Under the pieces are notes generated by a model. The model was not told the DNA's origin. It was given only the letters and a program-made list of their open reading frames with translations, and did no database searches. This document shows, piece by piece, positions 30,950 to 41,017 of a DNA stretch of 64,000 nt (positions within the stretch are counted from its first letter, which is position 1; each line of letters starts with the position of its first letter). The stretch is from NCBI RefSeq assembly GCF_002094305.1, contig NZ_LWTX01000002.1, positions 124,001 through 188,000 on the forward strand, in the 5' to 3' direction. A program made the position numbers and the translations under genes. This DNA comes from Prescottella equi. Lineage in GTDB: Bacteria > Actinomycetota > Actinomycetes > Mycobacteriales > Mycobacteriaceae.

Positions 30950-31528
30950 GTGAGTGACGACACCGGCACCGCAGTGGTCGTCGGCCTGGGCAACCCGGGA
31001 CCGCAGTACGAGAAGACCCGCCACAACATCGGTTTCATGGTGGCCGACGTCCTCGCCGGCCGCGTGGGCGGAAAGTTCAGCGCCCACAAGCGCAGTGGCG
31101 CCGAGATCGTGCAGACCCGGCTCGTCGGCCGGCAGGTGATCCTCGCCAAGCCCCGCTCGTACATGAACCTGTCGGGTGGCGCGGTGTCCGGGCTGGCCCG
31201 CTTCTTCTCGGTGAAGCCGGAGAACATCGTCGTGATCCACGACGAACTGGACCTCGACTTCGGCACCATCCGGCTCAAGCAGGGCGGCGGCGAGGGCGGC
31301 CACAACGGCCTGCGCTCGATCTCGCAGTCCCTCGGCACCAAGGACTACCTGCGCACCCGCGTCGGCATCGGCCGCCCGCCGGGCCGACAGGATCCCGCCG
31401 ACTACGTGCTCAAGCCGTTCTCCACCGTCGAACGCAAGGAACTCGATCTCGTCTGCGAGGAGGCCGCGGACGCCGTCGAACTGGTGCTGCAGCTCGGACT
31501 CGAGGCGGCGCAGAACCGGCTGCACTGA
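30950..31528 (+). CDS. pth: Peptidyl-tRNA hydrolase
   Basis: 192 residues, GTG start with AAAGGA upstream. It frees tRNA from peptidyl-tRNA released prematurely. The family blocks are [20 protein letters not shown] with the catalytic His (NIGF), [10 protein letters not shown], and [28 protein letters not shown]. In M. tuberculosis the next gene is pks16 (Rv1013); here the formate dehydrogenase/selenium island starts 90 nt downstream. Confidence 0.97.
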
Positions 31529-31618
31529 CGGCCGACCTGCGCATCGGTTGCGAATCCCCGCCTGGTGACGTTGCATGGGTGAGACCACTCGATCGACGGA
31601 GCGGACAGGGAGCAGCCG

Positions 31619-34600
31619 ATGAGTATTCGTGACTTCGCGCAGCGCTGGCCGGTGTGGCAGCAGATCACCGGGACCGACCCGCTCGGTCGCGGCGCGGCCG
31701 CCCAGTCCCGCCGCTCTCTCGAGATCACCCCCCGCACCGAATCGGCCGATCGGGTCGTCAAGAGCGTGTGCCCGTACTGCGCCGTCGGCTGCGGGCAGAA
31801 GATCTACGTCCGCGACGAGAAGGTCGTGCAGATCGAGGGCGATCCGGACAGCCCGATCTCGCGCGGGCGTCTGTGCCCCAAGGGCTCGGCCAGCAAGCAG
31901 CTCGTGACGAACCCCGACCGGGTCACCACCGTGCTGCACCGTCGCCCGTATGCGAGCGAGTGGGAAGAAGTCGACCTGGACACAGCCATGGAGATGGTCG
32001 CCGACCGGGTGCTCGAGTCGCGAGATCAGTTCTGGCAGTGGGAAGACGACGAGGGCCGACGGGTGCGGCGCACGTCCGGTGTCGCGAGCCTCGGCGGCGC
32101 GACGCTGGACAACGAAGAGAACTACCTGATGAAGAAGCTCTACACCGCGCTCGGCGCGATCGAGGTGGAGAATCAGGCCCGTATTTGACACTCCTCCACA
32201 GTTCCCGGTCTGGGAACCTCGTTCGGCCGTGGTGGTGCCACGAACTACCAGCAGGACCTCGTCAACGCGGACTGCATCATCATCCAGGGCTCCAACATGG
32301 CGGAGTGCCACCCCGTCGGTTTCCAGTGGGTGATGGAAGCGAAGCTGCGGGGCGCCAAGGTCATTCACGTGGATCCGCGGTTCACTCGCACCAGCGCGGT
32401 CGCGGATCTGCATGTCCCGGTCCGCGCCGGCTCGGACATCGCGTTCCTGGGTGGGCTCATCAACTACGTGCTGGCCCACGACGCGTACTTCCACGATTAC
32501 GTCGTGGCGTACACGAACGCGCCGATGATCGTCTCCGACGATTTCCGGGACACCGAGGATCTGGCGGGCCTGTTCTCCGGGTTCGACGTGGAGGGCCGGC
32601 AGTACGACACCAGCAGCTGGCAGTACCGGGACGGTGGGTCGCAGTCTCCAGCGGCCGGTGCGCGTGATGCCGAGTCCGGGGAGACCGAGGCGTCCGGCAG
32701 CGGCGGAGCGCTCACCGGAAGCGCGGACGAGGTGCCGCAGCGGGACGACTCGCTGCGGGACCCGCGATGCGTCTTCCAGGTACTCAAGCGGCACTTCGAG
32801 CGGTACACGCCCGAGATGGTCGAGCAGGCGTGCGGTGTTCCGCGCGAAAGCTTCCTCGAGGTGGCCCGGGCGCTGACCGAGAACTCGGGCCGCGACCGGA
32901 CGTCGGCGTTCTGCTACGCGGTGGGCTGGACCCAGCACACCGTCGGCGTGCAGTACATCCGCACGGCATCGATCCTCCAGCTCCTGCTCGGCAACATCGG
33001 CCGGCCGGGTGGCGGGATCATGGCGCTGCGCGGGCACGCGAGCATCCAGGGGTCGACGGACATCCCGACGCTGTACAACCTGCTGCCCGGGTACATCCCG
33101 ATGCCGCACGCGCACAAGCACATCGATCTTGACACCTTCGTCGGCGAAAACGCCGGTGCGAAGGGCTTCTGGGGCAACATGCGCGCGTACACGGTGAGCA
33201 TGCTCAAGTCGTGGTGGGGCGACGCGGCCACGGCCGAGAACGACTTCTGCTTCGACTACCTGCCGCGCCTGACCGGCACGCACGATTCGACGGACACCGT
33301 CGAACGGCAGATCAACGAGGGCGGGGGCGGCTACTTCCTGGTCGGCGAGAACCCCGCGGTGGGCACGGCCAACGCCCGCATGCAGCGGGCCGGCCTGGCG
33401 AATCTCGACTGGCTGGTGGTGCGCGACCTCGCGATGATCGAGAGCGCGACGTTCTGGAAGGACGGGCCGGAGATCGAGACCGGCGAGATGCGGACCGAGG
33501 ACATCGGTACCGAGGTCTTCTTCTTCCCCGCCGCCAACCACGCCGAGAAGCAGGGCAGCTTCACCAATACGCAGCGGCTGCTCCAGTGGCATCGCAAGGC
33601 GCTCGATCCGCCGGGCGACGCCCGCAGCGACCTGTGGTTCTACTTCCATCTGGGTCGCATCCTCAAGGAGAAGCTCGCGGGCTCCACCGACGAGCGTGAT
33701 CGGCCGCTGCTCGATCTCGTGTGGGACTACCCGATGGAGCCCGGCACCGACGAGCCCGACGCGGTCGCGGTCCTGGCCGAGATCAACGGCACCGGCCCCG
33801 ACGGTCAGCCGCTGTCGATGTACACCCAGTTGCGCGACGACGGATCGACCCGCTGCGGGTGCTGGATCTACTGCGGGGTGTACGGCGACGGCGTCAATCA
33901 GGCCGATCGACGCCGGAGCCGGCACGAGCAGGGCCCGGTGGCGCCGGACTGGGGTTGGGCATGGCCGGCGAACCGGCGCGTGCTCTACAACCGGGCCTCG
34001 GCGGATCCCGACGGTAAACCGTGGAGCGAACGCAAGGCGTTCGTGTGGTGGGATCCGGACGCGAACGACGGCGCCGGCCGCTGGACGGGCCACGACGTCC
34101 CGGACTTCGAGGCCGACAAGCCGCCGACGTACCGGGCGCCGGAAGGGGCGACGGCGGAGGACGCGATCAACGGCACCGAGCCGTTCATCATGCAGAACGA
34201 CGGCCGGGCGTGGTTGTACGCGCCGGTGGGCCTGCTGGACGGTCCGATGCCGACGCACTACGAACCACCGGAGTCGCCGCTGCCGAATCCGCTCTATCCG
34301 CAGCAGTCCAACCCTGCTCGGATGCCGCATCCGGGAAAGTTCAACCGCTACAACCCTGCTCACGGTGCGGCGGGCAGCGAGGTGTTCCCGTACATGTTCA
34401 CCACGTACCGCCTCACCGAGCACCACACGGCCGGCGGGATGAGCCGCACGCTGCCGTACCTGTCGGAACTGCAGCCGGAGTTCTTCTGCGAGGTGAGCCC
34501 CGAGCTGGCGGCCGAGCGCGGTCTCGAGAACGGCGGGTGGGCGACGATCGTCACCGCCCGCACGGCGATCGAGGCTCGCGTCCTGGTCACCCACCGGATG

Positions 34601-34861
34601 CAGCCGCTGGTGGTGGACGGTCGACGGCTCCACCAGATCGGGTTGCCGTACCACTGGGGACGGAACGGCATCAGCGTCGGTGACGGCGCCAACGAGCTGC
34701 TGCCGCAGGCGCTGGACCCCAACGTGTCCATCCCGTCCACCAAGGCCACCAGCTGCGACATCCAGCCGGGCCGTCGGCCTCGGGGTCCCGCGCTGCTGGA
34801 GTACGTGGCCGAGTACCGGCGACGCGCCGGCGTGACACCCGAGACAGGAACGGAGCTGTAA
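31619..34861 (+). CDS. fdhG: Formate dehydrogenase catalytic subunit, selenocysteine-containing (UGA read as Sec190)
   Basis: One 1080-residue protein if the TGA at 32186-32188 is read as selenocysteine; conventional translation would split it. The part before the TGA (codons 1-189) has the [4Fe-4S] cluster Cys51, Cys54, Cys58 (CPYCAVGC) and Cys86. The part after it continues in the same frame with HSSTVPGLGTSFGRGGATN, aligning with the V-Sec-HGP...GRG region of E. coli FdnG, so residue 190 is the Mo/W ligand. MGD-binding domains follow to the end. An acidic Ser/Gly/Ala insert lies near residue 345-380. No Tat signal is visible, so the enzyme probably faces the cytoplasm. It is followed by iron-sulfur and membrane subunits. 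Confidence 0.95.
32186..32217 (+). promoter_or_regulatory. Bacterial SECIS element of fdhG
   Basis: Starting at the UGA, 18 nt lead to the apical GGTCT (32207-32211), flanked by a perfect 6-bp stem GTTCCC/GGGAAC. The 18-nt distance and GGUCU loop equal those of the E. coli fdhF SECIS, which SelB binds to deliver Sec-tRNA. Confidence 0.88.
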
Positions 34862-34863
34862 CC

Positions 34864-35810
34864 GTGTCGGACAATCTGTCGAAACTGGGTCGAGCGTTCT
34901 TCGGCCCGGGCGACCCCGCGCGGGAAGCGGGGTACACCGACCCGCCGAGCCGCAAGGGCTTCTTCACCGACACCAGCGTGTGCATCGGGTGCAAGGCCTG
35001 CGAGGTCGCGTGCAAGGAGTGGAACGCCGTCCCCGAGGACGGGCTCGAGCTGACCGGGATGTCGTACGACAACACCGGGGCGCTCGGCGCCTCGACCTGG
35101 CGGCACGTGGCCTTCGTGGAACAGCCGGTGCCGGCCGAGCGACGGCGGGAGACCGTCGATCTGGGGATGCCGGGGACGTCGTTGCCCGGCGCCGACTCCG
35201 ACGTCACCGAACGCACGGACTTCCGCTGGCTCATGGAGTCGGACGTGTGCAAGCACTGCACGCACGCGGCATGTCTGGACGTGTGTCCCACCGGCGCGCT
35301 GTTCCGGACCGAGTTCGGCACCGTCGTGGTGCAGAACGACATCTGCAACGGCTGCGGCTACTGCATCCCGCCTGCCCGTACGGCGTGATCGACCGCCGCG
35401 ACGGCCCCGCCGGGGACCCGGCCGTGGGCCTGGCCCAGAAGTGCACGCTCTGTTACGACCGGCTGTCGGGCGGGATGGAACCGGCGTGCGCGAAGGCGTG
35501 TCCCACGGATTCGATCCAGTTCGGCGATCTGGACGAGTTGCGCGAGCGCGCCGATCTCCGGCTCGCGCAACTGCAGGACGCGGGTGAGTCGACCGCCCAG
35601 CTGTACGGGCGCGACGAGGGCGACGGCGTCGGCGGCACCGGGGCGTTCTTCCTGCTACTGGACGAGCCGGAGGTGTACGGGTTGCCCCCGGACCCGGTGG
35701 TCACCACGCGGGACCTGCCCGGGATGTGGCGGCAGGCCGCGGTCGCGGCTGCCACGCTGCTCGGCGGCGCGGTCGTCGCGTTCGCCGGCCGTCGAAAGGG
35801 ACACCGATGA
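34864..35810 (+). pseudogene. fdhH: Formate dehydrogenase iron-sulfur (beta) subunit with a one-base frameshift
   Basis: GTG start 2 nt after fdhG. Four ferredoxin-type Cys clusters are present: CIGCKACEVACKEWN, CKHCTHAACLDVCP, CNGCGYCI...CP and CTLCYDRLSGG...CAKACP. They would carry electrons from FdhG to the membrane subunit. In the third cluster only five bases lie between the ATC (Ile) and the TGC (Cys) codons near 35366-35375, where six are needed (likely CCGGCC read as CCGCC). The frame stops at 35388, while the rest continues one frame over to 35810 with a C-terminal membrane helix (AAVAAATLLGGAVVAFAG). Either a sequencing/assembly error or a recent mutation. Confidence 0.85.
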
Positions 35811-36799
35811 CCGACCGTACGCAGACACGTCGCCGCGGACGGCGCGGGCGCGGCGAGCAGGCGATGGTGCCCGACGCCAAGTTCGAGAGCTACTACGGCC
35901 GGCCCATCGTGAAGGCGTCGCCGTGGCAGGCGGACATTCCCGCCTACCTCTTCCTCGGCGGGCTGGCCGGCGGTTCGTCACTGCTGGCCGCCGGGGCGGA
36001 TCTGACCGGGCGCCCGCACCAACGGCGTTCCGCCCGGGTGATCGCCCTCGGCGCCATCGTGGCGAGCATGTATGCGCTGATCCACGACCTGGGCCGCCCG
36101 GCCCGGTTCCATCACATGCTCCGCGTCGCCAAGCCGACGTCCCCGATGAGTGTGGGCACGTGGATCCTGTCGCTGTACGGACCGTTCAACGGTCTGGCCG
36201 CGGTCGGCGAGTTCGCGGATCTGCTCCCCCGCCCCATCCGGCGGGGACCGCTGGGCCGGCTGCTGACGTTCGCGACCCGTCCCGCCGGGATCCTGGCCGC
36301 GGTCACCGCGCCCGCGGTGGCGTCGTACACCGCCGTGTTGCTCACCGACACCGCGACGCCCAGTTGGCACGAGGCCAAGCGCGAGTTGCCGTTCGTATTC
36401 GTCGGCAGCGCGGCCGCGGCCGCGGGCGGGGCGGGCCTGCTGACGGCACCGCTCGCCGAGTCCGGACCTGCCCGGCGCCTCGCGGTCGGGGGCGCGGCGC
36501 TCGAACTGGCGGCGTCGCAGATCATGCAGCGGAGCATGGGCATCACAGCCGAACCGCTGCGGACCGGGACCGCGGGTCGTCTGCACTCCGCTGCGACCGC
36601 CCTCACCGCGGGCGGCGCGGTGGGAGCCTTGCTCGGCCGACGCAGCCGCGCGGTGACGGCACTGTCGGGCCTGGCGCTGACCGCGGGATCGGCATGCACG
36701 CGCTTCGCCGTCTTCCACGCCGGGCAGGCCTCGGCACGCGATCCGCGGTACACGGTGGTGCCGCAGCGGGAACGGCGTGCCGCTCAGGCCACGACGTGA
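35807..36799 (+). CDS. NrfD-family membrane subunit of formate dehydrogenase
   Basis: 330 residues, ATG overlapping the beta-subunit stop (ATGA). A basic N-terminus is followed by about eight hydrophobic segments of NrfD/PsrC type, including IPAYLFLGGLAGGSSLLAAGA, DLGRPARFHHMLRVAKPTSPMSVGTWIL and a late CTRFAVFHAG. NrfD subunits pass electrons to menaquinone and bind no heme, unlike the cytochrome b subunit of E. coli FdnI. The 3' end overlaps the convergent selB gene by 16 bp. Confidence 0.9.
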   Translation: MTDRTQTRRRGRRGRGEQAMVPDAKFESYYGRPIVKASPWQADIPAYLFLGGLAGGSSLLAAGADLTGRPHQRRSARVIALGAIVASMYALIHDLGRPARFHHMLRVAKPTSPMSVGTWILSLYGPFNGLAAVGEFADLLPRPIRRGPLGRLLTFATRPAGILAAVTAPAVASYTAVLLTDTATPSWHEAKRELPFVFVGSAAAAAGGAGLLTAPLAESGPARRLAVGGAALELAASQIMQRSMGITAEPLRTGTAGRLHSAATALTAGGAVGALLGRRSRAVTALSGLALTAGSACTRFAVFHAGQASARDPRYTVVPQRERRAAQATT

Positions 36800-38535
36800 C
36801 CGTCCTCCCCCGTCCGGCGGGTCCGCCCCTCTCGGGCGAGGACCTCGAGCAGCGGCATGATCACCCGGCGCGAGGTTCCCAGACGAGTTCGGGCTTCGCT
36901 GGGCGTGAAGGGTTCCGGTAGCTCCCGGAGCGCCTCGACGGCGGCGTCCACCGCCCCGGCCCCGAGCCAGACGCCCCCGCCGAGCGGAGTGACCAGTCCC
37001 GCCCGGGCACAGGCCGCGAGTTCGCGGTGCCCGAGCCCCAGTTCGGCGAGCTCGCCCGCGCTGGGAGCGACGAAGGGCTCGTCCTCCCACCGCTGCTGCA
37101 ATCGGGCGGCCGCCTGCGCGACGGGCTCCGGAAGCCCGGCCTCGGCGTCGCGTCGCACGATCCGGCCGTCGTCCACCGTGAGGGCGTCCGCATGTTCGAG
37201 CACCGCGGCCAGCAGCTGCGGGTCGGGCAATGCGAGCGCTCGACGCGCCGCCTCGCCGGGCAGGCCGGGCGCGAGCGGATGCGTGCGAGCGTGCTCGTCG
37301 ACCAGTTTCCCCAGTCTCTCCGCCGCCGAACGTGCCGTGTCGGGGTCGAGCAGCCAGTCGCCGGGGCCCGCTGTGTCGGGAACACCGGTGACACCCCACG
37401 CCCGCAGATCGCGGGCCCGCGCGAAACCACGTCGGCGCAACTGCGAGCCGACGTCGGGGGCCGCCGCGGCCAGGACCTCGGCGCGCCGACGGGCATCGCC
37501 GCGGCGGCGAAGCTCGGGCGGTGCGGGATCGAGTACCACCGCACCCGACGGGATGAGCCCGGCGTCCGGGTCCCGCAGAATCATCCGGTCACCGATCCGC
37601 AGGGGCAGCGGCTGCTCGAGCGACAACCGGGCGAACGCGTCGGTGAGCGGTCGGACGCGAGCGCCGATCGCGGCGGATCCGCAGTGCACGACGACGTGTT
37701 CCCGCAGCGTTCCGGGCGCCGTCAGCTGCACGTCCACCGTGGCGGTCTCGTACCACCGGTCGGGGGTGAGCAGCGCGTCGCCGCGTGCGATGTCGGAGTT
37801 GGCGACGCCGCGCAGGTTCACCGCCACGCGGGCCGGGGCCGGCACCTCCGCGCGGTCCCGGCCGAGCGACTGCAGGCCCCGCACCACCACGCGGGGCCCG
37901 TTCGCGCCCACGAGCAGCGTGTCGCCGGTCCGCACGGTGCCGGCTCCGAGGGTGCCGGTCACCACGGTGCCTGCCCCACCGATGGTGAACGAGCGGTCGA
38001 CCCACAGCCGTACGTCCGCGTCGACGTCCGCCGCGGGGAGCTCGTTCCCGAGTCGTTCCAGCGCCGAACGCAATTCGCCCATCCCGGAGCCGGTGACGGC
38101 AGAGACCGCCACCGTCGGGATGTGCGCGAGCGACGTTCCGGCCAGCGCCGCCCGCGCCTCCTCGGCCGCCGGCTCGGGGTCGAGCAGGTCGCTGCGGGTG
38201 ATCACGAGCACCCCGTGCCGGACGCCCAACGCGGCGAGCGCGTCCAGGTGCTCCTGGGACTGCGGCATCCAGCCGTCGTCGGCGGCGACGACGAACAACA
38301 CCGCGGGCACCGGGCCCACGCCGGCGAGCATGTTCGGCACGAACCGTCGGTGCCCCGGCACGTCGACGAAGGCGACGGTCCGGCCGTTCGGCAGCGTCGT
38401 GGACGCGAAGCCCAGGTCGATCGTGAGACCGCGGCGGCGTTCCTCGGCCCAGCGGTCCGGTTCCTCGCCGGTGAGCGCACGGATCAGCGTGGATTTGCCG
38501 TGATCGACGTGCCCGGCGGTCGCGACGACGAACAT
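36784..38535 (-). CDS. selB: SelB, selenocysteine-specific elongation factor
   Basis: 583 residues from the ATG at 38535, overlapping the selA stop (TGATG). The GTPase domain has G1 GHVDHGKST (8-16) and G3 DVPGH (58-62), with TRSDLL as the NKXD equivalent. Domains II and III of EF-Tu type follow, then a C-terminal region of winged helices (about 380-583; FTPSEARTRLGTSRRVIMPLLEVL) that binds the SECIS hairpin. It brings Sec-tRNA to the UGA of fdhG. Its stop lies inside the convergent NrfD gene. Confidence 0.97.
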   Translation of the reverse strand: MFVVATAGHVDHGKSTLIRALTGEEPDRWAEERRRGLTIDLGFASTTLPNGRTVAFVDVPGHRRFVPNMLAGVGPVPAVLFVVAADDGWMPQSQEHLDALAALGVRHGVLVITRSDLLDPEPAAEEARAALAGTSLAHIPTVAVSAVTGSGMGELRSALERLGNELPAADVDADVRLWVDRSFTIGGAGTVVTGTLGAGTVRTGDTLLVGANGPRVVVRGLQSLGRDRAEVPAPARVAVNLRGVANSDIARGDALLTPDRWYETATVDVQLTAPGTLREHVVVHCGSAAIGARVRPLTDAFARLSLEQPLPLRIGDRMILRDPDAGLIPSGAVVLDPAPPELRRRGDARRRAEVLAAAAPDVGSQLRRRGFARARDLRAWGVTGVPDTAGPGDWLLDPDTARSAAERLGKLVDEHARTHPLAPGLPGEAARRALALPDPQLLAAVLEHADALTVDDGRIVRRDAEAGLPEPVAQAAARLQQRWEDEPFVAPSAGELAELGLGHRELAACARAGLVTPLGGGVWLGAGAVDAAVEALRELPEPFTPSEARTRLGTSRRVIMPLLEVLAREGRTRRTGEDGHVVA

Positions 38536-39788
38536 CACCGCGCCGCCAGGATCGCCCGATACAGGTCGTCGTCCGCCGACGGGCGGACGGTTCGCAGATC
38601 CAGCAGGCACCGGCCGTCGAGCACTCGGCCGAGCACGGCCGGACGACCCGCGCGCAGCAGGTCCGCGTACGCCGCGGGCAGACTCACCGCCGCGCTGGGC
38701 AGGTCCACCCCCGGCGCTCCGCCGCCACCGACCGTGGCCGCCGAGTCGGCGGCCACCGCGTCGACGCCGGCGCTACGCAGGCGGTCCGCCATCGTCTCGG
38801 CCCGCCGTCGCAGCTCCGCGACATCCGCGGAAAGTGCTGCGGCGGTGGGTGTTTGCGGTCCGCGCAGGGTCGCCTCGAACGCGGCCAGCGTCAGCTTGTC
38901 CACGCGCATCGCACGCGCCAGCGGGTGGCGTCGCAGCCGGTGCACCAGTTCCGCGCGTCCGCCGATCACCCCCGCCTGGGGTCCACCGAGAAGCTTGTCA
39001 CCGCTCGCGGTCACGAGGTCGGCACCGGCCCGCAACGTCGAGGCCATGTCCGGCTCGTCGGGCAATACCGGGTGGCGCGCAAGCAGTCCCGAGCCGATGT
39101 CCACCACGAGCGGGCAGTCGAGGCCCGCGAGGTCGCGGACCGCGACGCTCGACGTGAAGCCGGTGATCCGGAAGTTCGAGGGATGCACCTTCAGGACGAA
39201 CGCCGTCTCCGCGTCTATCGCGCGCACGTAGTCGTCGAGGTGCACCCGGTTGGTGGTGCCCACCTCGCGCAGTCGCGCGCCGGTCGATTCCAGCAGGTCC
39301 GGCAGCCGGAACCCGTCTCCGATCTCCACCATCTCGCCGCGGGCGATGACGATGTTGCGGCGTTCACCGCCGAGAGCCGTGGCGGCCAGCGCCAACGCCG
39401 CCGCGCCGTTGTTGACGATGTGGACGTCCTCGGCGTCGGGCACCGCCGACCGGAGGGCGTCCAGCGCGCCGCGCCCGCGCTTGCCGCGCTGCCCGGACAC
39501 CAGGTCCAGTTCGACATCGTTGGTGCCCGCAGCCAGTTCGAGCGCTCGGACCGCGGCCGTCGACAGCGGCGCCCGGCCGAGGTTGGTGTGCAGCAGCACT
39601 CCGGTCGCGTTGAGCACGGGAGTCAGCGTCACCGGCGTGGCGGGCAGACCGTCGAGCACGACGTCGACGACGCCCTCGGGTGCCAGCAGACCTTGCCGCA
39701 CCTGCTGCTGGGCGGCGCGGATCCCCGCTTTGACGGTCTCGCGGCCCACCGTGTCGATCGCCTCGCGCAACCGCTCGTCCCGGAGCAC
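38535..39788 (-). CDS. selA: SelA, L-seryl-tRNA(Sec) selenium transferase
   Basis: 417 residues from the only canonical start in frame (GTG at 39788). It converts Ser-tRNA(Sec) to Sec-tRNA(Sec) with selenophosphate. PLP binding is at ASGDKLLGGPQAG (Lys265); TNLGRAPLS and VNNGAAALALA are family blocks. The frame stays open upstream and encodes residues resembling the usual SelA N-terminus (DPRRRVPSTDAV), yet has no ATG, GTG or TTG before the in-frame stop. An ATA at 39848 with GTGAGG upstream could be the real start, giving 437 residues. Confidence 0.95.
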   Translation of the reverse strand: MLRDERLREAIDTVGRETVKAGIRAAQQQVRQGLLAPEGVVDVVLDGLPATPVTLTPVLNATGVLLHTNLGRAPLSTAAVRALELAAGTNDVELDLVSGQRGKRGRGALDALRSAVPDAEDVHIVNNGAAALALAATALGGERRNIVIARGEMVEIGDGFRLPDLLESTGARLREVGTTNRVHLDDYVRAIDAETAFVLKVHPSNFRITGFTSSVAVRDLAGLDCPLVVDIGSGLLARHPVLPDEPDMASTLRAGADLVTASGDKLLGGPQAGVIGGRAELVHRLRRHPLARAMRVDKLTLAAFEATLRGPQTPTAAALSADVAELRRRAETMADRLRSAGVDAVAADSAATVGGGGAPGVDLPSAAVSLPAAYADLLRAGRPAVLGRVLDGRCLLDLRTVRPSADDDLYRAILAAR

Positions 39789-39873
39789 CGCGTCGGTGGA
39801 CGGGACGCGCCGGCGCGGATCGGCCTCGCGGGTCTGCTGCTCGGCTATCGCGGTACCTCACTTCTCATGGCTT

Positions 39874-39969
39874 TGGCGGAGGCGGACGGGAATCGAACCC
39901 GCCTGGCCGAGATACTCGGCCACGTCGGTTTTGAAGACCGCGGAGACCACCAGGTGCCCATACGCCTCC
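39874..39969 (-). tRNA. selC: tRNA-Sec (anticodon UCA)
   Basis: 96 nt including an encoded CCA. Acceptor GGAGGCG/CGCCTCC with discriminator G, anticodon loop CTTCAAA (UCA) in the stem CGGT/ACCG, a long variable arm (GGCCGAG/CTCGGCC) and T loop GGTTCGATTCC are seen. The long D stem and extended variable arm are typical of tRNA-Sec. It is upstream of selA-selB on the same strand and 24 bp from the divergent selD start. Confidence 0.96.
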
Positions 39970-39981
39970 GCTGAAAGACCT

Positions 39982-39993
39982 TAGGCTGCCTCC
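39982..39993 (+). promoter_or_regulatory. -10 element of a leaderless selD promoter, nested against selC
   Basis: TAGGCT (39982-39987, TANNNT) lies 6 nt before the selD ATG, the leaderless spacing. The -35 would then fall around 39959-39965, inside the acceptor end of the divergent tRNA-Sec gene. Confidence 0.5.
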
Positions 39994-40998
39994 ATGGGTT
40001 CCGCACAACACACCGACAGACTGACCTCATATGCGCACGGCGGCGGATGTGCCTGCAAGATCCCGCCGGGAGCGCTCGAGTCGGTGGTGGCCGGTCTGGT
40101 CGCGGCGCCTGTCGCCGAACCCGCGGCCCCGCTGATCGTGGGACTCGACAACGGTGACGACGCGGCCGTCGTGCAGGTGCGCGGCGACCTGGCGGTGATC
40201 AGCACGGCGGACTTCTTCACGCCCGTCGTCGACGACCCGTACGACTGGGGGCGCATCGCCGCGGCCAACGCCCTGTCCGACGTCTACGCGATGGGCGGCA
40301 CTCCGGTGGTGGCGATCAACCTGCTGGGGTGGCCGATCGACCGGCTGCCCTACGAGGTGGCCGCGGAGGTGCTGCGCGGCGGCCGGGACGTCGCTGCCGC
40401 CGCGGGCTGCCACGTGGCCGGTGGGCACAGCGTCGACGACCCCGAACCGAAGTACGGCATGGCGGTGACCGGAACCGCCGACCCGGCTCGCCTGATGCGC
40501 AACGACGCCGGACGCGCCGGCATCCCGCTGTCGCTGACCAAGCCGCTGGGCATCGGTGTCCTCAACAGCCGCCACAAGAACACCGGAGAGGTGTTCCCGC
40601 AGGCGATCTCGGCGATGACTACGCTCAACGACCGAGCCTCCCGCGACGCCGTCGGGGCCGGGATCACGTGCGCGACGGACGTGACCGGCTTCGGTCTGCT
40701 GGGGCACCTGTTCAAGCTGGCCCGCGCCAGCGGGGTGTCCGCCGTCGTCGATGCCGCCGCGGTCGAGTACCTGGACGGCGCCCGCGACGCGCTCGCCGAC
40801 GGCTTCGTCAGCGGCGGCACCCGGCGCAACCTCGACTGGGTCCGCCCGCACCTGGAAGCGTCCGTGAGCGAGGACGAGTTGCTGCTGCTCGCGGACGCCC
40901 AGACGTCGGGCGGGCTGCTCGTTGCCGGCGAGATCCCCGGGGCGCCGGTGATCGGCGAACTCGTTCCCGCCGGGGATGCGGTGCTGATGGTGCGGTGA
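39994..40998 (+). CDS. selD: SelD, selenide water dikinase (selenophosphate synthase)
   Basis: 334 residues. It makes selenophosphate from selenide and ATP for SelA. The N-terminal active site is HGGGCACK with catalytic Cys19 and Lys22; some SelD proteins have Sec here, this one has Cys. IVGLDNGDDAAVV and STADFFTPVVDDPYDWGRIAAANALSDVYAMGG bind Mg-ATP. It is divergent from selC-selA-selB and completes the pathway. The next gene converges with a 19-nt gap. Confidence 0.97.
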   Translation: MGSAQHTDRLTSYAHGGGCACKIPPGALESVVAGLVAAPVAEPAAPLIVGLDNGDDAAVVQVRGDLAVISTADFFTPVVDDPYDWGRIAAANALSDVYAMGGTPVVAINLLGWPIDRLPYEVAAEVLRGGRDVAAAAGCHVAGGHSVDDPEPKYGMAVTGTADPARLMRNDAGRAGIPLSLTKPLGIGVLNSRHKNTGEVFPQAISAMTTLNDRASRDAVGAGITCATDVTGFGLLGHLFKLARASGVSAVVDAAAVEYLDGARDALADGFVSGGTRRNLDWVRPHLEASVSEDELLLLADAQTSGGLLVAGEIPGAPVIGELVPAGDAVLMVR

Positions 40999-41017
40999 CG
41001 TCCGACGGGGCCTGGCG

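Follow-up and report, generated by a model that had tools for sequence, protein, structure and literature searches.

A selenocysteine formate dehydrogenase and its decoding genes in one block of the Prescottella equi genome, with evidence suggesting movement as a unit

Gene content of the block

The window analyzed here is a 64,000-nucleotide stretch of the Prescottella equi genome. Within it, an apparent selenocysteine (Sec)-containing formate dehydrogenase (FDH) and the genes for Sec decoding all lie in one 9.4-kb block (31619..40998), with the following features.

31619..34861, + strand: fdhG, formate dehydrogenase catalytic subunit, 1080 residues, predicted Sec at codon 190
32186..32188, + strand: in-frame UGA (Sec codon 190 of fdhG), TGA in the sequence
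32201..32217, + strand: SECIS-type hairpin, 6-bp stem and 5-nt loop
34864..35810, + strand: fdhH, iron-sulfur subunit, frame broken near 35370
35807..36799, + strand: fdhI, NrfD-type membrane subunit (PF03916, 71.9 bits; cut-off 25.8)
36784..38535, - strand: selB, Sec-specific elongation factor (TIGR00475, 288 bits; cut-off 242)
38535..39788, - strand: selA, Sec synthase (TIGR00474, 398 bits; cut-off 268)
39874..39969, - strand: selC, tRNA-Sec, anticodon UCA, CCA encoded (ARAGORN and Rfam)
39994..40998, + strand: selD, selenophosphate synthetase (TIGR00476, 387 bits; cut-off 125)
31535..41013, no strand: limits of the block, the stretch replaced by 38 nt in a relative (G006)

The deduced 1080-residue FdhG matches the NCBIfam model NF041513 (formate_DH_Act) at 1941 bits (cut-off 1400) and TIGR01553 at 962 bits (cut-off 814), and carries the Pfam domains PF04879, PF00384 and PF01568. 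SelB has the GTP_EFTU and SelB-wing_3 domains (Pfam); the start of its gene overlaps the stop of selA, and its end overlaps the end of fdhI. The fdhI gene is intact and passes the Pfam NrfD cut-off, and selD, which has no in-frame stop, encodes the Cys form. The bacterial Sec-decoding trait, comprising SelA, SelB, SelC and SelD, is complete in the window. An earlier note on this DNA had placed SelA, SelB and SelD within 9.4 kb and had recognized a tRNA with a UCA anticodon; both statements hold, with all three proteins passing curated TIGR cut-offs and the tRNA identified by ARAGORN (anticodon TCA) and by Rfam RF01852 (75.5 bits; cut-off 47). No mobile-element or recombinase names appeared among the block genes in the NCBIfam and Pfam family scans.

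The same note called the block self-contained. This is accurate insofar as the Sec-FDH and the Sec-decoding set share one block, but FdhD, which is required for FDH maturation, is encoded on a different contig (C1:671488-672228), and the block is therefore not fully self-contained. Seryl-tRNA synthetase and the molybdenum cofactor genes would presumably also have to be supplied from outside. FdhG had further been described as the only visible selenoprotein, and within the scope of three protein families this stands: among 8 AhpC-TSA, 1 Rdx/SelW and 7 molybdopterin-oxidoreductase matches in the same genome, only fdhG has a TGA, and we found no other selenoprotein.

The Sec codon and its hairpin

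The reading frame of fdhG is interrupted by a single stop, the TGA at codon 190, in agreement with the in-frame UGA claimed previously. A second genome of the genus (G009) encodes a 1080-residue FdhG match with 99% identity and the identical single TGA. In the best 80 matches from one scan (the named loci), the equivalent codon is TGA in 72, TAG in 7 and TGC in 1. This spread, together with the same TGA in G009, argues against a chance stop. The seven loci with TAG (L039, L054, L057, L065, L073, L083 and L084) belong to Blastococcus, Geodermatophilus and Modestobacter; Sec encoded by TAG has already been published for the family of these genera (PMC5330540).

Downstream of the Sec codon is a hairpin with a 6-bp stem, which begins 15 nt past the first base of the UGA, and the loop GGUCU, whose letters are similar to those of the E. 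coli fdhF SECIS loop. Adding the window to the best 80 named loci gives 81 sequences, 80 of which form six of six stem pairs. The third stem pair, which couples the third positions of a Val and a Gly codon, is formed in 80 of the 81, as T-A, C-G, T-G, G-C or G-T. When pairing was shuffled 10000 times, a procedure that ignores relatedness (the 81 stretches comprise 52 distinct sequences), the mean was 63.5 and the maximum 72. The sole Cys (TGC) copy among the 81 sequences, L087, has a broken stem with three of six pairs left.

Other measures were less favorable. The folding energy of the hairpin is not better than that of shuffled sequence under three ways of cutting (z 1.17, 0.74 and 0.00), and Rfam SECIS_3 scores 24.1 bits, below its cut-off of 63 (E 0.093). 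Pairing conservation, and not folding energy, thus supports a putative SECIS-type hairpin. The earlier identification of a SECIS element is upheld by stem pairing, but not by folding energy or the Rfam cut-off. The unremarkable folding energy would also fit a plain stop at codon 190 and a gene product that is a 189-residue fragment. We consider this extremely improbable, however, as a complete Sec machinery adjoins fdhG, the sequence is conserved beyond codon 190, and TGA or TAG occupies the codon in 79 of the best 80 named loci. As a separate observation, L087, which combines a Cys codon and the same FdhG with a disrupted stem, constitutes a natural control for SECIS function.

Distribution and movement of the block

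Our genus set comprised 14 genomes, including the genome of the window (G000). Each of the 14 has some match to FdhG, but only G000 and G009 have a full-length protein with one TGA; matches in the remaining 12 are partial and at most 40% identical. G000 and G009 are also the only ones of the 14 in which SelA and SelD were detected. Across the wider family, SelA reaches E 1e-20 or better in 48 of 201 evenly drawn genomes. Among the matches listed, 54 named loci span at least 23000 bases; fdhG, fdhH, fdhI, selA, selB, selD and tRNA-Sec occur together in 27 of these, selA, selB and selD lie within the stretch in 33, and none of these three is present in 16. Co-location is therefore common, but not universal. 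In six Actinomadura loci (L020, L027, L028, L034, L055 and L074), a UGA-containing fdhG adjoins selD, selB and selA; the stretch contains neither a match to fdhH or fdhI nor a tRNA-Sec. We considered the missing tRNA-Sec as an oddity and set this aside: seven of seven Actinomadura genomes searched encode one elsewhere, above cut-off, so its absence near fdhG is nothing unusual.

The closest of the listed loci with all four of fdhG, selA, selB and selD are from Dietzia (D. aurantiaca, L009; D. massiliensis, L013; D. alimentaria, L014). These share the window's set of seven genes, arranged and oriented identically, with identities of 77-79% for FdhG, 71-72% for SelA, 66-68% for SelB and 82-85% for SelD. 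Their fdhH is in frame, whereas that of the window is broken. A literature search of a limited collection found no paper on a Dietzia selenocysteine formate dehydrogenase. Comparable arrangements are known from other actinobacteria. According to a 2010 report, Corynebacterium aurimucosum has an fdnG-fdxH-selD-selA-selB region with selC, an internal UGA in fdnG and a gene order described as highly conserved (PMC2830990); by this published description, it resembles the window in clustering a Sec-FDH with selABCD. Streptomyces incarnatus is similar to the extent that a Sec-FDH-O and selABCD are present in one actinobacterial genome (PMC4498112). Streptomyces loci among the matches listed have the order H-I-G-D-tRNA-B-A, unlike the window.

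Transfer of such modules has also been described. Zhang 2006 proposed that Sec transfer requires clustered selA-selB-selC and a selenoprotein gene, mostly fdhA (PMC1794560), and Peng 2016 reported actinobacterial transfers with selD and the sole selenoprotein gene nearby (PMC5029168). As described there, these cases are like that of the window: FdhA is the only selenoprotein, its gene adjoins the decoding genes, and they moved jointly. The present case differs in involving two species of one genus, the same site and evidence from synonymous divergence (dS). Such an arrangement has thus already been published, as has its lateral transfer, and an NCBIfam model exists for this FdhG.

The gene pth, beside which the block lies, is found in 14 of 14 genus genomes, and we read the neighboring stretch in the other 13. 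In G009, the block sits in the same gap beside pth as in G000. For the 12 genomes without the block, both flanks are visible in 6 and only the left flank in the other 6 within the fetched stretch. The site in G006 is near-empty, with 38 nt between the flanks; in G001, G003, G004, G005 and G010, the flanks are separated by different DNA of ~0.6 to 4 kb. The gap, which lies between pth and an AMP-ligase gene, therefore looks variable, with such DNA in five relatives (loci L125, L126, L127, L129 and L131). At the right edge of the block in G009 (L124), ~120 extra bases separate selD from the AMP-ligase gene.

Divergence between G000 and G009 (NG86 point values) differs between the block and its surroundings. 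Within the block, dS is 0.097 for fdhG, 0.120 for fdhI, 0.135 for selB, 0.126 for selA and 0.102 for selD, with fdhH at 0.069 before its break and 0.081 after; the five flanking genes have values of 0.340, 0.251, 0.377, 0.532 and 0.411, which puts the block ~2- to 8-fold below its flanks. The dN/dS ratio is 0.04-0.12 across the block. The shift in divergence occurs at both edges of the block; at the left edge, 11 differences in pth (31404..31498) are followed by 1 up to 31644. The block and its flanks have similar GC3 (0.88-0.90 vs 0.84-0.92), which lends no compositional support to a foreign origin and disfavors codon use as a simple cause of the low block dS.

The rplY-pth tree, which represents one region of 1486 columns and not the species tree, pairs G000 with the block-less G004 (support 100/100). 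Placing the block on this flank tree takes two changes, and one change suffices in 0% of 200 bootstrap trees. Trees of FdhG, SelA, SelB and SelD, built from the 42 loci carrying all four genes among the matches listed, each unite the three Dietzia loci with the window and G009 in one clade. Pairwise distances among the four gene families correlate at 0.89-0.95, a range uncorrected for species relationships.

What we found is the pattern of a laterally moved module: carriers that are not sister genomes, divergence below that of the flanks and a near-empty site. Non-sister carriers, low block dS and agreeing gene trees support the earlier idea that the module is kept or moved as a unit, and suggest, from sequence comparison, that the block moved between species in this manner. 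A block ancestral to the genus and lost from the other lineages, with no lateral transfer within the genus, would explain why both carriers have it in the same gap beside pth, and Sec loss is common in bacteria (PMC1794560). It accords poorly, however, with the reduced dS relative to five flanking genes and the shift at the edges, for which the similar GC3 leaves codon use no simple cause, and with the separation of G000 and G009 in the flank tree; we regard it as improbable. Instead, we find it very probable that a membrane-bound, Mo-dependent FDH operon, fdhGHI, travels with selB-selA-selC and selD, and that at least one of the two genus lineages acquired the block by lateral transfer into the gap after pth. 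More tentatively, and as a possibility we do not favor outright, this gap may be a replaceable cargo site, at which species exchange the whole Sec-FDH module as a cassette that breaks at its edges and leaves the neighboring genes behind.

The fdhH frame break and predicted function

The earlier note did not mention that the window's fdhH is broken. Its frame is lost near 35370, in the stretch 35366..35388, the first frame ends at 35388, and the remainder continues in another frame to 35810. Fer4 families were detected in the first part (Pfam), and the first fragment scores 68 bits against TIGR01582, below the cut-off of 335. Of the two partner subunits of FdhG, the membrane subunit is therefore encoded intact and the Fe-S subunit out of frame. 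In G009, fdhH is intact (315 residues). A match to fdhH is present in 64 of the best 80 named loci, and at the break site 63 of 63 readable loci among the matches listed are in frame; together with G009, this indicates that the break is confined to the present assembly. L051 was dropped as a second case, since its sequence there reads N, and L082, although in frame at the break site, carries a stop at another point of its fdhH match.

The break is either a sequencing error or a recent loss. If it is a real recent mutation, the FDH may be dying in this strain, with the sel genes to follow. The absence of the break from G009 and from every readable named locus is consistent with such a recent event, but none of fdhG, selA, selB, selD and fdhI is disrupted, each has a low dN/dS, and a single-base break is equally explicable as an assembly error; we judge decay to be plausible, at somewhat under an even chance. 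A programmed frameshift might be entertained given that the downstream frame reaches the normal end with a dN/dS of 0.115 over 147 codons. We rejected this as likely because the break is not common to relatives, G009 and the readable loci being in frame at the site, and we hold it to be very improbable. The module itself is real, though ordinary in kind, and its Sec-FDH activity in the strain is uncertain because fdhH is frame-broken in the assembly.

By analogy with the established bacterial pathway, SelD would make selenophosphate, SelA would convert Ser-tRNA-Sec to Sec-tRNA-Sec, and SelB, bound to the hairpin, would deliver Sec-tRNA-Sec at the UGA. The FDH would then oxidize formate, with electrons passing to FdhH, to FdhI and on to quinone. 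The steps of this scheme that can be read from the DNA are the UGA, the hairpin with its paired third-codon positions, the tRNA-Sec, and SelA, SelB and SelD above curated cut-offs.

According to a published proposal, the Sec trait can spread only if the genes for it are transferred along with the gene for one selenoprotein. The block described here offers a clean present/absent pair for this proposal within one genus. The fdhH break is also a warning that a selenium module may look complete and yet be inactive in the strain that was sequenced.
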